Shown in pieces: positions 1 to 10,059 of a stretch of DNA of 64,000 nt (within the stretch, counting starts at the first letter, position 1; each line of letters opens with the position of its first letter). The position numbers and the translations under genes were made by a program. Origin of the DNA: Crocinitomicaceae bacterium. GTDB lineage: Bacteria; Bacteroidota; Bacteroidia; Flavobacteriales_D; Crocinitomicaceae. The stretch lies in NCBI GenBank assembly GCA_017984635.1, contig JAGNZC010000001.1, forward strand, positions 62,001 through 126,000. Reading direction: 5' to 3'. Below the pieces are notes generated by a model. The model searched no databases and was not told the DNA's origin. It saw only the letters and a program-made list of their open reading frames with translations.

Positions 1-519
1 AGAATGGGGCTACAGGGTCAAAGTTGGGGAGGTTACCAAACAGCTCAACTCATTACAATGACCAATCGGTTTAAAGCTGCTATGGCAGGAGCGCCTGTTT
101 CTAATATGACTTCCGCCTATGGAGGAATAAGATGGGGTGCAGGAATTAATCGTCAATTTCAATACGAACGCACGCAAAGTAGAATAGGAAAAACGCTTTG
201 GGAAGCACCTGAAAAATACATAGAAAATTCGCCTTTGTTCAAAGTGCCTGCCATACAAACGCCCTTGTTAATTATGGCAAATGATAAAGATGGTGCAGTT
301 CCTTGGTACCAAGGCATTGAAATGTATACAGCAATGCGACGGTTAAATAAACCGTGTTGGATGTTGAATTACAATGGAGATGATCACAATTTAACGAAAA
401 TGGCTAACAAAATTGATTTAAGTATCAGAATGCGCCAATTTTTTGACCATTATTTATTCGAAAAACCTGCTCCAAAATGGCTGAAAGAGGGCGTTCCGGC
501 TTTAGAAAAAGTTAAATAG
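1..519 (+). CDS. S9-family serine peptidase, C-terminal part (prolyl oligopeptidase-like)
   Basis: The gene enters from the left edge, so the N-terminal propeller and the start codon are outside the window. The visible 172 codons are the catalytic alpha/beta-hydrolase end. The nucleophile elbow GQSWGGY lies at the very start (Ser at about visible residue 8), the acid is the second Asp of NDKDGAVP (about 97), and the His is in GDDHN (about 129), so the triad is complete. The family cleaves peptides after proline or related residues, usually in the periplasm in Bacteroidota. The next gene encodes a possible protease inhibitor but lies on the opposite strand. Family assignment is firm; substrate is unknown. 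Confidence 0.9.
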   Translation, partial: RMGLQGQSWGGYQTAQLITMTNRFKAAMAGAPVSNMTSAYGGIRWGAGINRQFQYERTQSRIGKTLWEAPEKYIENSPLFKVPAIQTPLLIMANDKDGAVPWYQGIEMYTAMRRLNKPCWMLNYNGDDHNLTKMANKIDLSIRMRQFFDHYLFEKPAPKWLKEGVPALEKVK

Positions 520-609: not shown

Positions 610-855
610 TTACTGATTGCAATCACAACTTTCACATTCCTCTTTCGTTTCAAAACCAACGGGTGAGCATCCGCTGTATCCGATTAATTCACACGTATTG
701 GTGCCTTGGTTGTAAAACCATGATTCAAAATAGGCAGCACAAATCGTTCCTGTTTCAGGTGTTGCTGAGCATTTTGTTTGTTGACTATCTGTACAATCTT
801 TCGTACAACTTACAGAACTAAAAACAATAAAAATAAACACAATCAATTGTTTCAT
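610..855 (-). CDS. Small lipoprotein with a Kunitz/BPTI-like domain
   Basis: This 81-residue protein starts with a lipoprotein signal (hydrophobic stretch, then SVSC). The rest carries cysteines in nearly the Kunitz order. Spacings from the Cys of KCSATPE are 10, 16, 8, 11 and 3 residues, against 9, 16, 8, 13 and 4 in BPTI. The core WFYNQGTNTCELIGYSGC closely resembles the Kunitz FYN...C...YGGC segment. Kunitz domains usually inhibit serine proteases by inserting a loop after the second cysteine. The start codon overlaps the stop of the upstream TonB receptor gene (ATGA), so the two are translationally coupled. Inhibitory activity is inference; fold resemblance is good. Confidence 0.7.
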   Translation of the reverse strand: MKQLIVFIFIVFSSVSCTKDCTDSQQTKCSATPETGTICAAYFESWFYNQGTNTCELIGYSGCSPVGFETKEECESCDCNQ

Positions 856-3272
856 TTTTGGCGCAATTTAAAGTCAATTTTATAGTAGAATATTGGTAAA
901 AATCCAAGCTGTTGTTTAATAGCAAACGGGTCAGCAGATGGATCTTTCAAGTTTGGAGCGTAAGTTAAACTTAATAAATTTTGAGTATTTAAAAGATTCA
1001 CTAAATCTAAACCAATTTCATGTGTCGATTTTTTTGAATTGTATTTCCAGCTTATTTTTAAATCAGCTCTAAAATAATCTTTAAATTGACGTTCGTTGTA
1101 CAATGAATCACTGTAAATTACTTCATTGTATAATTTCGATTTTTCTACATCAGCATAGCCATAGCGTTTTCCTCCTGCAACTGTTATTTTTAATCCCAAA
1201 GAAATAATTTGGTTTTCACTTACTTTAAACTCTTTTCCAGCTAATAAATTTGCCACATAACTTCCGTTGTATGACGTATTTCGTGTGATGCCATCACTTC
1301 CTTTGTAGGTTGATTGATAATACGTTCCTGAGAATAAAAAGAAAAATGATTTGTCAAAGTATTTTTGCACAGTTAATTCAATACCATAGTTTGTTCCTGT
1401 TCCCGTATTTTGAAGAGAATCTGGGAAGAAACGTTGGAAACCACCACCCATATTGATCAATGAAAAAGAAGATGGTGCTACTGTCACAGGAATATTGTAC
1501 AAGTATTGGTAATAAACTTCACTTCTAATATTAAATCCTTTATTAAATGATTTTTCATAGCCAATGCCGGTATGGATACTACGTGTAAAATCCATATTTT
1601 TATTGTGGTAAATTTTAGCTCCATTTGGATCTAGTTTGTGGTACGTATAGGTATACAATGGTTGCATACCGCTGTGCATTCCAGCGCCTGCAAAAACGGC
1701 TTGATTTTTATTCATACGGTATTTCCATCCTAAACGAGGCTCTAGAATACTTTGGCTTTTACTTAATGTGAAAAATTGTGCGTGAATACCTGCTGTAAAA
1801 TCCATTTTTTCTGAAATTCTGAATTTCCATTGCGCAAAGGGTTGAAATAAAGCGGCAGAACCTTTGTAATCCCAACGAATAACAAAATTATTATCCGCAA
1901 CAAATTGCTTAGCTGAGTCGATTTGATTCATGAAATAAAAATCAGCATTCCAACCAATTTTTAACAAATGACGTTTGTTGAATTTATGATTGGCACTGAA
2001 ATACGCACTTGCTTTTGTTGTTGCAAAACTATACCCCATTAAAGGTTTTATAGAGTCGATTCGTATCGTATTATCTGGTTCAATTGCTCTCCACAAATAA
2101 TTATGCTTAGAATGTTGTTCATCATACGCTAATGAAACGGTTGTTGTAATGAACGTTTTTTCAGATATTGATTTTTTGAAATTTAAACCTGTTACGCCCA
2201 TTGAAGTTCCAAAATATTGATCTCTATCGCCTTCACCATAAAATTCTTCAGAGTATTTTTTTTGGTCAGAAATTAAAATTTCGATTTCACTTTTACCACC
2301 TATTCCATAAAAAGAAAGCGCGCCTCCTTTTTTCAATAACCAATTAAATTTAAACGCAAGATCACCATAAACTGGAACAGCATCAGTACCTAATTTAATT
2401 CCAATTTGTTTGAACATACTTAATGTTGAATAACGCCCCATCACTAAATAGCTAGATCGTTTTGATTTACTTAATGGACCTTCTGCCAAAAATTCAGTTC
2501 CTAACACACCAAATTGACCTGTAAATTCATGTTGGTTTGTATTTCCATTTCGTAATTTCAAATCAAAAACACCTGAAGTACTGTTACCATATTCAGCAGG
2601 AAAAGCACTCATAAAGAAATCAGAGTTTCCAAGGATTTTATTGTTCAAAACAGAAACAGGTCCACCTGTACTTCCAGAAATTGCAAAGTGAGACGGATTT
2701 GGAATATCTACACCTTCAATTTTCCACACCACACCCAATGGAGAATTTCCACGAATAATAATATCATTTCTAGAATCGTCAGCACCTTGTACACCTGCAA
2801 AATTTGAAGCCATACGAGCGGGATCCATTCTTGATCCTGGATAACGATTGGTTTCTTCCACACTAAATTGTTGTGCTGAAATAACGGCTAATTCATTGAT
2901 GACTTGTCCTCTTTTACGGGCAACAACCTTTATTTCTTTTACTTCTGTGTAGCGTTCTGTCATTGGTACATTCGCAATGGTTTCACGTCCAGAATTTACT
3001 TCAATGGTTATGATTTTCACTTCATATGTATTCATGAAAACTTCCAGTTGGTATTTTCCAACGGGTACATTTTCCAAAACGAAAAGTCCATTATTATCAG
3101 TAATCGTTTGCAATTTTTTTGTAGAATCTTGCAAGAATACAGTGATTTTGGCTCCGATTAATTGAAAATTAGTTTCATTGTCGTATATTTTCCCTCGCAC
3201 ATTCTGAGATGGCTGTGCAAATGCAGTAAAAATAAAGATCAGTGAAAAGAGTACAAGTAGTCTTTTTTTCAT
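852..3272 (-). CDS. TonB-dependent receptor with carboxypeptidase-regulatory-like N-terminal domain
   Basis: An 806-residue outer-membrane protein. A signal peptide ending in AFAQ is followed by a beta-sandwich segment (VRGKIYDNETNFQLIGAKITV, to about residue 110). A plug domain follows with the typical GVQGADDSRNDIIIRGNSPLG region near 165, then a long beta-barrel rich in aromatic-ended strands, ending in a strand that finishes in KLRQK. Such receptors import siderophores, vitamin B12, glycans or peptides using TonB energy, or act with a SusD partner. No SusD follows, so this is not a typical glycan uptake pair. The downstream Kunitz-like lipoprotein overlaps it by 4 bp. Ligand is unknown. 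Confidence 0.9.
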   Translation of the reverse strand: MKKRLLVLFSLIFIFTAFAQPSQNVRGKIYDNETNFQLIGAKITVFLQDSTKKLQTITDNNGLFVLENVPVGKYQLEVFMNTYEVKIITIEVNSGRETIANVPMTERYTEVKEIKVVARKRGQVINELAVISAQQFSVEETNRYPGSRMDPARMASNFAGVQGADDSRNDIIIRGNSPLGVVWKIEGVDIPNPSHFAISGSTGGPVSVLNNKILGNSDFFMSAFPAEYGNSTSGVFDLKLRNGNTNQHEFTGQFGVLGTEFLAEGPLSKSKRSSYLVMGRYSTLSMFKQIGIKLGTDAVPVYGDLAFKFNWLLKKGGALSFYGIGGKSEIEILISDQKKYSEEFYGEGDRDQYFGTSMGVTGLNFKKSISEKTFITTTVSLAYDEQHSKHNYLWRAIEPDNTIRIDSIKPLMGYSFATTKASAYFSANHKFNKRHLLKIGWNADFYFMNQIDSAKQFVADNNFVIRWDYKGSAALFQPFAQWKFRISEKMDFTAGIHAQFFTLSKSQSILEPRLGWKYRMNKNQAVFAGAGMHSGMQPLYTYTYHKLDPNGAKIYHNKNMDFTRSIHTGIGYEKSFNKGFNIRSEVYYQYLYNIPVTVAPSSFSLINMGGGFQRFFPDSLQNTGTGTNYGIELTVQKYFDKSFFFLFSGTYYQSTYKGSDGITRNTSYNGSYVANLLAGKEFKVSENQIISLGLKITVAGGKRYGYADVEKSKLYNEVIYSDSLYNERQFKDYFRADLKISWKYNSKKSTHEIGLDLVNLLNTQNLLSLTYAPNLKDPSADPFAIKQQLGFLPIFYYKIDFKLRQK

Positions 3273-3477: not shown

Positions 3478-4278
3478 ATGAAGGCGTATATTTTAAGTTT
3501 TATTTCATTTTTGGTTGCAAGCTGTTCTTTTGGATCGATGTTGTCCATTGAAGGAGTTTATCAAGGTAAAAATGTGTATGTTCAAAATCCTATTTCAAGT
3601 GATGGGTTCGGATATTGTGCTTCAAAAGTAACTGTAAATGGCGACATTGTTCCCAGTAATATTGGAAATGGTGATTTTGAAATAGATTTGTCTGACTTGA
3701 ATATTTCAATTGGTGAACCATTGTTTATTGCCATTGAACATGAGGAAGGATGTAAACCTTTCATTATTAATCCTGAAGTATTATTGCCAAGAAGTACTTT
3801 TATTATTGCCAAATTAGACATTCAAACGAACGGAAAATTAATCTGGGAAACTACTAAAGAACAAGGAAAACTTCCTTATTATATCGAACAATTCAGGTGG
3901 AATAAATGGGTTATTGTAGGAGAAGTTCAAGGAATTGGGACAGGTGGTATGCATCATTATGAATTTTCAGTTTCTCCTCACAGCGGACTTAATACTGTGC
4001 GTGTTGTGCAAATCGATCATTCTGGCTTAAAACGTCCGTCAAAAGAAGTTAGATTTAATTCACTTGTTCCCAAAGTGACTAAAAACCCTACAAAGGTGAA
4101 AGATGTGATACATTTCACAGCGAAAAACACGCCGATCGAAACGCGTTTTGAAATATTTGATGCGTATGGAAATATTGTAAAAAAAGGAGTTGGGACAACC
4201 GTAAACTGCAAAAATTTAGCCAGAGGTGCTTATTACATTAATTTTGATAATACAAACGAAAAGTTTATCAAAAACTAA
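3478..4278 (+). CDS. Secreted protein of unknown function with a type IX sorting-like tail
   Basis: A 266-residue protein with an N-terminal signal sequence (ILSFISFLVASCSFGS; the Cys could also be a lipoprotein site). The middle is beta-rich with no recognised domain. The last 70 residues (VTKNPTKVKDVIHFTAKN, then RFEIFDAYGNIVKKG, then LARGAYYINF) follow the layout of the type A C-terminal domain that directs export by the type IX secretion system and surface attachment in Bacteroidota. It stands alone with its own promoter. The tail similarity is seen in the sequence; surface location is inference. Confidence 0.7.
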   Translation: MKAYILSFISFLVASCSFGSMLSIEGVYQGKNVYVQNPISSDGFGYCASKVTVNGDIVPSNIGNGDFEIDLSDLNISIGEPLFIAIEHEEGCKPFIINPEVLLPRSTFIIAKLDIQTNGKLIWETTKEQGKLPYYIEQFRWNKWVIVGEVQGIGTGGMHHYEFSVSPHSGLNTVRVVQIDHSGLKRPSKEVRFNSLVPKVTKNPTKVKDVIHFTAKNTPIETRFEIFDAYGNIVKKGVGTTVNCKNLARGAYYINFDNTNEKFIKN

Positions 4279-7830: not shown

Positions 7831-10059
7831 TTATTGAATAAAAGGAGGTTTGATTTCTGTGAATGGTAACGAAATTAATAATTTTGTTCCAGATTTACTA
7901 TTTTTATTTAAATCTTCTATGTGAAGAAATCCATCAGTTTTATATTTTTTATTCAAATTGTCAATTCGGTCGCGTGTTATTTTCATAGCCATGCTTTTGT
8001 GTTGTTTGTTTTTCTTAAACTTTTCTGCGCCCGACCTTCCAATTCCATTGTCAATAATTACAATGTGTAACATACTTTTATTTTTACTAAACACGATCTC
8101 AATTTTACCTCCTTCGATGGTATGTAATTGTCCATGTTCAATTGCATTTTCAATAAAAGGTTGTGTTATCATTGGCGGTATTAAGGTTGTTTGAAGCCCT
8201 AATTCCTCACTAACCTTTATGTTGTAATCAAATCGATCTTCAAAACGCAATTTTTGGGTTTCTAAGTACTTATTCAATATCTCAATTTCTGTTTCTAAAG
8301 GAATAAACTCTTTTGGTGAATTTTCTAATATTAAGCGCATTAGACGCGAAAAATTGACTAAAAATTTAGAGGAATTTTCGGTGTCATTTTCATAGATATA
8401 ACTTTGAATAACGGACATGGCATTGAACACAAAATGCGGGTTCATTTGGGTTCTCAACAACGTTTGGGACATTTCCGCTTCTTTTTGTTGTTGTTTAATT
8501 TTTGTTTGATTCCATCGATAAAAGCCAATGATTCCAGCTAAAATGATAATAATTAAAAAGCCTATTATAACATACCGCTGAAAGTTATTACGTAGTTCAC
8601 TATTTTCTAAGGTTGCCGCTGTTAAGACGCGTTCATTCCGTTGTTTTTCAATCGCATTAGCTTGAGCTGTAATTAAACGTTCGCGTTGATCTGCTTGGTA
8701 TAACTCACTTAATTCAGCAATTTTTGTTGCGGATTGTATGGTAGAATTACTATCTAATTGTTGAATGTAAAGGCGAATGTATTTATACGCTTCTCGTTGG
8801 TTTCCTAGTGCTGCATAAACATTCGAAATTTCACGATAAGTAGTGAAAATTAAATTTCGGGAGCCGTAATTCCTCCGAATTTGAATGGAACGATTGAAAT
8901 AGTTTAATGCATTTTTGTATTTTCCTTGGTATTCAAAAACAGTTGCAACATTATGATAAACATCGCCAATCTTACTTTTATTTCCTGTTGTTTCGTAAAA
9001 GATAAGTGCTTGATTAAATTGTTTTGCAGCAAAGCTGTATTCTTTTAATTCACGGTAAATAAGTCCTAAATTATTATAAGCTTCTGCCAATCCATTGATG
9101 TCATTTTGTTTCGTTAACATTGAGACGGCCTGTTTACTAGTTTTTAATGCTTCAGAAAATTCTTTTTTGTCGAGATGTATGGTAGCAATACTGGTTAAAC
9201 ACAGCCCCATCTGATGTTTGTCGTTAATTTTTTGAGCGAACAATAAGGCTTGTTTGAAATAATACTCAGCATCGTTTCTGTTATTAATCGATCGCTGTGC
9301 GATACCAATGATTCGATTGTATTTTGCTACTTTATAGAAATCGTTGATTTCTGAAGCAATCTGCAAAGCAATAAAGTTTTTTGCCACACTTAATTCTATT
9401 TGACCGAAAAATGAATAAATGCTGGCTTGTATATTAAAACTTTCTGCTAAAACATTTTTTTTTGATGATCGTCGCGCATATTGAATAGCTTGGTCTGAAT
9501 AATAAAGTGCTGAATCTTTTTTGTTTTCAAGCATATACGCTTGTGCATACAGGTTTTTTACTTCAGCAATATAGGCGTAGTTTCGCATTTTTTTTGCGAT
9601 GAATGAAGCTTTTTCAATAGTCAGAATTTCATTATTAAAATCGTTTGAATTGCTGTAATATTTACTTAAATGGCAATATACTTTGAATGATAAATGAGGG
9701 TCTTTTACTTTTTTCACAAATGGAATACACGAAAAAACATCCATGTAATATTCGTCTTGCTTACTTTGTAACTCATTAATATTAGCACTAAAAACTAAAG
9801 CACTTAATCGTATTGCATCATCAAAATTGCGACTATTTTGTAAAATCACATGTTTTATAGAGTCTGCTTTGCCAATGTTATTGATTTTGTAGTAATCACC
9901 CAATATTAGCGTGCGTGCGAATTTCTTTTTGGAATTTTTTTCTTGTTGAACGGCATGAATCAATTGGTTTTCATATTCACTTTGGCAAAATAATGACGCA
10001 TTAAATTGTGCAAAAAATAGTGCAAAAAGAAGAAGAATATGTTTTAAAAAGCGATTCAT
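7831..10059 (-). CDS. TPR-containing LytS-type sensor histidine kinase
   Basis: A 742-residue membrane kinase. A signal peptide (residues 1-25) is followed by a long alpha-helical periplasmic region of tetratricopeptide repeats (about 100-440; for example AEAYNNLGLIYRELKEYSFAAKQFNQAL). Then come a coiled coil, one membrane segment near 490-510, and the His_kinase domain with the phosphoacceptor in MNPHFVFNAM near 537. The N box is PPMITQPFIENAIEHG and the G box is IIDNGIGRSG. TPR sensors are common in Bacteroidota; the signal is probably protein or peptide contact. It pairs with the downstream LytTR regulator. Confidence 0.92.
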   Translation of the reverse strand: MNRFLKHILLLFALFFAQFNASLFCQSEYENQLIHAVQQEKNSKKKFARTLILGDYYKINNIGKADSIKHVILQNSRNFDDAIRLSALVFSANINELQSKQDEYYMDVFSCIPFVKKVKDPHLSFKVYCHLSKYYSNSNDFNNEILTIEKASFIAKKMRNYAYIAEVKNLYAQAYMLENKKDSALYYSDQAIQYARRSSKKNVLAESFNIQASIYSFFGQIELSVAKNFIALQIASEINDFYKVAKYNRIIGIAQRSINNRNDAEYYFKQALLFAQKINDKHQMGLCLTSIATIHLDKKEFSEALKTSKQAVSMLTKQNDINGLAEAYNNLGLIYRELKEYSFAAKQFNQALIFYETTGNKSKIGDVYHNVATVFEYQGKYKNALNYFNRSIQIRRNYGSRNLIFTTYREISNVYAALGNQREAYKYIRLYIQQLDSNSTIQSATKIAELSELYQADQRERLITAQANAIEKQRNERVLTAATLENSELRNNFQRYVIIGFLIIIILAGIIGFYRWNQTKIKQQQKEAEMSQTLLRTQMNPHFVFNAMSVIQSYIYENDTENSSKFLVNFSRLMRLILENSPKEFIPLETEIEILNKYLETQKLRFEDRFDYNIKVSEELGLQTTLIPPMITQPFIENAIEHGQLHTIEGGKIEIVFSKNKSMLHIVIIDNGIGRSGAEKFKKNKQHKSMAMKITRDRIDNLNKKYKTDGFLHIEDLNKNSKSGTKLLISLPFTEIKPPFIQ

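Follow-up and report, generated by a model that had tools for sequence, protein, structure and literature searches.

A predicted Kunitz-type lipoprotein encoded next to a TonB-receptor-like gene in a Crocinitomicaceae bacterium, and its relatives in Bacteroidota

The animal Kunitz/BPTI domains (PF00014, MEROPS I2), such as those of BPTI, SmCI, TFPI and boophilin, share with the small bacterial protein described here six cysteines in the same order, a WFYN-like core strand, a Y-x-G-C motif, a C-terminal helix and an alanine at P1'. The bacterial form differs from them in being two residues shorter between cysteines 4 and 5 and, mostly, one residue longer between cysteines 1 and 2, in a spacing of 2 between cysteines 5 and 6, and in having an additional pair of cysteines, a non-basic P1 residue and a predicted lipid anchor. 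Bacterial Kunitz domains have likewise been reported from Acinetobacter baumannii F6W77, where KABP1 inhibits the coagulation factors Xa and XIa (PMC11511053). These domains, KABP1-5, are all five carried by one protein, possess the classical six-cysteine framework and, where active, have Arg as the P1 residue; unlike for the present protein, a lipoprotein form is not described in the accessible portion of that report (PMC11511053). This was the only case of bacterial Kunitz domains in the literature searched, most subscription journals lying outside the search, and the variant described below was not found in it.

The gene is situated close to the start of the window, as we call the whole stretch of 64,000 nucleotides that was analysed (Table 1). 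Its 81-residue product belongs to the Kunitz protease-inhibitor family. The ORF matches a single Pfam family, PF00014 (Kunitz_BPTI), at 32.4 bits (E 1.1e-7) compared to a curated cut-off of 21 bits, and the mature part alone reaches 34.4 bits (E 2.5e-8). A profile search of this kind had been proposed in the initial annotation, whose claim of Kunitz-likeness it bears out. None of nine shuffles of the mature part with all cysteines held in place gave a Kunitz match, and thus the match is not due to the cysteine spacing alone. A sequence search of the PDB also returned Kunitz inhibitors, the best being SmCI (1.3e-10) and boophilin (6.8e-10). The ORF is the sole Kunitz match in its source genome.

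Table 1. Features of the locus, in window coordinates
Feature	Position	Strand	Basis
S9 peptidase, C-terminal part, convergent neighbour	1..519	+	Pfam Peptidase_S9
Kunitz-type lipoprotein CDS (predicted), 81 aa, ATG start	610..855	-	ORF list, Pfam
Cys79, last cysteine of CxC tail	619..621	-	Alignment and co-occurrence
Kunitz domain, residues 29-77	625..771	-	Pfam stretch 29-76 and fold search
Ala40, residue after second Kunitz cysteine, predicted P1	736..738	-	Alignment to Kunitz chains; P1 variability
Cys21, additional cysteine on the N-terminal side, predicted to pair with CxC tail	793..795	-	Co-occurrence
Cys17, predicted lipid-bearing cysteine	805..807	-	Sequence; invariant alignment column
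Predicted lipoprotein signal peptide, residues 1-16	808..855	-	Lipobox-like SVSC in sequence
ATGA, lipoprotein start overlapping receptor stop	852..855	-	Sequence; L032 and L040 likewise overlap by these 4 bases
TonB-receptor-like outer-membrane protein, 806 aa, upstream, presumed same mRNA	852..3272	-	CarboxypepD_reg-like N-terminal domain (Pfam); plug-like region by eye

The AlphaFold2 model of the protein is of middling confidence (pLDDT 77.4, pTM 0.61; 35 aligned sequences, including some of the same family). It consists of a β-hairpin (residues 25-33 and 38-46) and a C-terminal helix (residues 55-60), in the Kunitz order. The best 50 Foldseek matches listed are all Kunitz domains, with TM scores of 0.47-0.60 by query length and none at an E of 0.001 or better. 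Alignment of the model to Kunitz chains with VIA-align gave Z scores of 5.2-5.8 among the matches listed, and a Z below 8 is not strong by itself. Overall, the predicted fold appears to be that of a Kunitz domain. A predicted structure that lacked the Kunitz arrangement had been named at the outset as speaking against this assignment, and at the level of the fold, and at that level only, the arrangement is present in the model.

Other origins of the Kunitz match can be discarded. A chance match is ruled out by the shuffles with fixed cysteines. Contamination is rejected because the gene lies on the same contig as bacterial genes and Kunitz matches occur in 25 of the 200 genomes of the family (the count includes the window's genome). 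An NCBIfam toxin family was listed for the ORF at E 0.03, but its 13 bits are far short of the cut-off of 720, and the match is noise.

The signal region, read from the sequence as MKQLIVFIFIVFSSVSC, and a lipobox-like SVSC at residues 14-17 support the earlier description of the 81-residue protein as a lipoprotein, and a lipobox-like match is found in all 24 family rows compared, that of L037 being doubtful. In Capnocytophaga, the surface-export signal of lipoproteins is C-X-K-(D/E)2-X, according to the accessible part of the report (PMC5080379). The present protein reads C-T-K-D-C from Cys17; it has the lysine at +3 in common with that signal and its aspartate at +4 also fits, but +5 is a cysteine instead of Asp or Glu, and the motif of a lysine followed by two acidic residues is incomplete. 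Of the 18 Kunitz lipoproteins that passed the signal filter among the 25 family loci, 17 have a positive residue at +3, compared to 10 of 25 other lipoproteins; for Lys or Arg at +3 together with Asp or Glu at +4 the counts are 10/18 and 1/25, respectively. We infer that the Kunitz lipoprotein is lipidated, positioned in the outer membrane and exposed on the surface.

The ORF contains nine cysteines and not six, as had been counted originally: the putative lipid-bearing Cys17 and then C21, C29, C39, C55, C63, C74, C77 and C79. The near-Kunitz spacing that had been claimed does hold for six of them (C29, C39, C55, C63, C74 and C77), which fill the Kunitz positions with a spacing of 9-15-7-10-2. 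C77 is taken as Kunitz cysteine 6, with C79 as an alternative candidate. In 47 aligned rows, the extra N-terminal cysteine and the CxC tail are both present in 34 and both absent in 12; one row, L086, has an N-terminal cysteine only, which sits in other sequence, and none has the tail only. This co-occurrence suggests a fourth disulfide between Cys21 and the CxC tail. The corresponding Fisher value of 2.5e-10 overstates the independence of the rows because they are kin. The 47 rows leave out 16 loci not caught by the cysteine pattern, namely L035 and 15 of the 35 loci L055-L089; when these were tried again, 3 of them still gave no pattern. Among the missed loci, L035 has a CxC tail without an extra N-terminal cysteine and is a counterexample to the pairing. 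The lipid cysteine was set by a script and, judged by eye, wrongly so for the first L028 copy, L037 and L081.

The reactive loop is both variable and constrained. Among 27 distinct sequences of the short form, the P1 residue is Gln in 13, Met in 5, Leu in 3, Ala in 3, Glu in 2 and Phe in 1, and is never Lys or Arg. The P1' residue is Ala in 26 of the 27. In BPTI numbering, the equivalent of Gly37 is Gly in all 27, and that of Gly36 is Ser in 23. Where canonical inhibitors have a glycine two positions ahead of the second Kunitz cysteine, the 81-residue protein has Thr, and the loop preceding this cysteine is one residue longer in most sequences. This glycine and Gly36 are both conserved in working Kunitz inhibitors. 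The canonical loop is only partly kept: the P1' Ala and the Gly37 equivalent are retained, whereas the two other glycines are mostly replaced. Strong purifying selection acts on the mature domain: between the three species of the genus that have it, dN is 0.046, 0.088 and 0.033 and dS 1.384, 1.486 and 0.314, respectively, the dS values above 1 being near saturation.

Judging from these sequence features, it is on balance probable that the protein is a tethered outer-membrane inhibitor of foreign serine proteases with a specificity other than that of trypsin. As an outer-membrane lipoprotein it would carry one compact Kunitz domain with four predicted disulfides, three of them canonical (in Kunitz domains these link cysteines 1-6, 2-4 and 3-5) and one connecting Cys21 to the CxC tail. 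As in the standard mechanism, an attacking protease would bind the Ala40-Ala41 loop in its active site as it would a substrate that is slowly cleaved. Since P1 is variable and non-basic (Ala here; Gln, Met, Leu, Glu and Phe in relatives), the targets would be proteases other than trypsin, and they probably belong to competitors, predators or grazers and act on the cell envelope.

The loss of two loop glycines leaves room for a role without inhibition, in which the Kunitz scaffold would have become a surface binding or structural module; a repurposed binding fold had also been considered in the initial annotation. Non-inhibitory Kunitz proteins, including channel-blocking examples, are known among animals, and the changed loop lengths agree with such a role as well. 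However, a P1 residue that varies next to a nearly fixed P1' Ala and a fixed Gly37 equivalent is more in keeping with an inhibitor than with a mere scaffold, and we consider the loss of inhibition rather unlikely. A different possibility retains the inhibition but directs it at the cell's own enzyme, because the genome encodes a trypsin-fold protein of 754 residues, bearing a type IX sorting tail, against which the lipoprotein might protect its producer. Of the 26 genomes of the genus, 25 have this peptidase, and the Kunitz gene is missing from 22 of those 25, making self-protection improbable.

In the initial annotation, the gene had been coupled to the TonB receptor. The receptor-like protein has no Pfam plug or barrel match, and a PDB sequence search with it found no match. 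The lipoprotein could shield the receptor from proteases or aid the uptake of a protein or peptide ligand: the two genes are on the same strand, presumably in the same mRNA, and the ATGA overlap is found in all three species of the genus that have the Kunitz gene. The coupling is therefore evident in the sequence, but it is not general. Of the 26 genomes of the genus, 21 have a receptor orthologue (at least 66 percent identity) and two others have fragments, whereas only 3 have the Kunitz gene. Among 19 receptor loci readable downstream (for L107, just 464 bases were readable), the Kunitz gene follows in 3, and a convergent ORF takes its place in 16. Outside the genus, 21 family loci have an upstream neighbour, which never belongs to the receptor cluster; in L034 and L041, a gene of this cluster does lie at another position in the vicinity. 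Co-occurrence across genomes thus fails for the receptor as a general functional partner; its protection or service, as first suggested, finds no backing in these loci, and we give a receptor partnership little credence. Apparently, the Kunitz gene is often the last member of units that differ in content, the receptor being one such place, because the upstream neighbours, which are on the same strand in 21 of the 24 family loci having one, come from many unrelated clusters. Upstream of the receptor gene and divergent from it, the window contains a gene (positions 3478-4278) whose 266-residue product bears a sorting tail for type IX secretion.

The S9 peptidase (923 residues in full, cut by the window start) lies next door on the other strand, as had been noted, in convergent orientation, but the linkage is confined to the same three species, which removes it as a general functional partner. 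That the lipoprotein inhibits this adjoining enzyme is a negligible prospect, as the genes, though adjacent in three species, are convergent and not co-transcribed, the linkage is not seen in other genera, and Kunitz inhibitors, to our knowledge, act on chymotrypsin-fold enzymes and not on prolyl-oligopeptidase folds.

Downstream of the Kunitz gene, four of the 25 family loci (L031, L033, L034 and L035, from three genera) have a sigma-factor gene followed by a gene for an unassigned protein, which the sigma-factor gene overlaps; the ECF label of the sigma factor comes from a Pfam scan of the L031 genes only. In L050, a DUF6970 gene (8150-8518) for a cysteine-containing, lipoprotein-like product follows the Kunitz gene, and its cluster is represented in five of the six loci of one synteny group.

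In the family, the domain is conserved but patchily distributed, and its genes sit at many different genomic places, as would be expected for an accessory defence gene. Kunitz matches of all forms were found in 64 of 399 genomes of the order and in 6 of 395 genomes of a phylum-wide draw (both counts include the window's genome). A protein search of genome contigs gave four loci, including one from Saprospiraceae and another with the label Sulfuricurvum. The short form, with 10 residues between cysteines 4 and 5, is the one present in all 25 family loci, and the spacing between cysteines 1 and 2 is 9 in 22 of them and 8 in L037, L041 and L045. In other families of the order, a second form predominates, in which 11 residues separate these two cysteines, 4 and 5, and the loop is GGCxGVVPF-like. 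None of the bacterial rows compared has 12 residues there, the number that we take to be the animal one from BPTI. A weak match in the congener G164 (E 0.0063) runs antisense to a long ORF that by eye resembles GldG; this match was taken as chance. Searches for the Kunitz lipoprotein gave no match in plasmids or in phages, and the 34 pattern matches in viral contigs yielded none that was confirmed.

That a conserved, predicted lipid-anchored branch has cysteine changes in common across many genera speaks for a family native to bacteria. Going further, we suggest with considerable reserve that Bacteroidota possess native, long-established cell-surface Kunitz inhibitors of a four-disulfide, short-loop design, which might have spread between species as an accessory shield against the proteases of predators or rivals and would not be recent borrowings from animals. 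Such a small protein is useful for asking which proteases environmental bacteria must withstand.

The Saprospiraceae locus L028 (2779-4628) encodes two Kunitz lipoproteins, one of which has a further C-terminal region (189 residues), an unassigned ORF and a Kazal-like lipoprotein. By sequence, the Kunitz lipoproteins of this locus are locally associated with another class of putative inhibitor, which is in line with an inhibitory role, but the Kazal-like neighbour scores 17.0 bits, below the Pfam cut-off of 21. The same genome has six Kazal matches over the cut-off and contains other multi-Kazal ORFs. No Kazal match was found in two congeners of the window's bacterium, and a Kazal_2 search found none in the window's own genome, which shows little because the controls gave no match either.

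The other Bacteroidota Kunitz domains (L055-L086) belong to the same Pfam family as the short form but mostly have a spacing of 8-15-7-11-3 or -2, with the GGCxGVVPF loop. They score higher against the Pfam profile (about 43-56 bits), keep the loop glycines, and many of them begin longer secreted proteins. The lipoproteins of L061, L071, L073, L077, L081 and L084 have an extra N-terminal cysteine and a CxC tail, as does the 81-residue protein. In L055-L084, from other families of the order, Kunitz domains with the GGCxGVVPF-like loop start secreted proteins of 235-400 residues, and several of those in L063-L082 have a conserved C-terminal end in common. Outside Bacteroidota, the contig labelled Sulfuricurvum (L029, 5863-6750) encodes a 295-residue protein with an N-terminal Kunitz domain that scores 49.2 bits.
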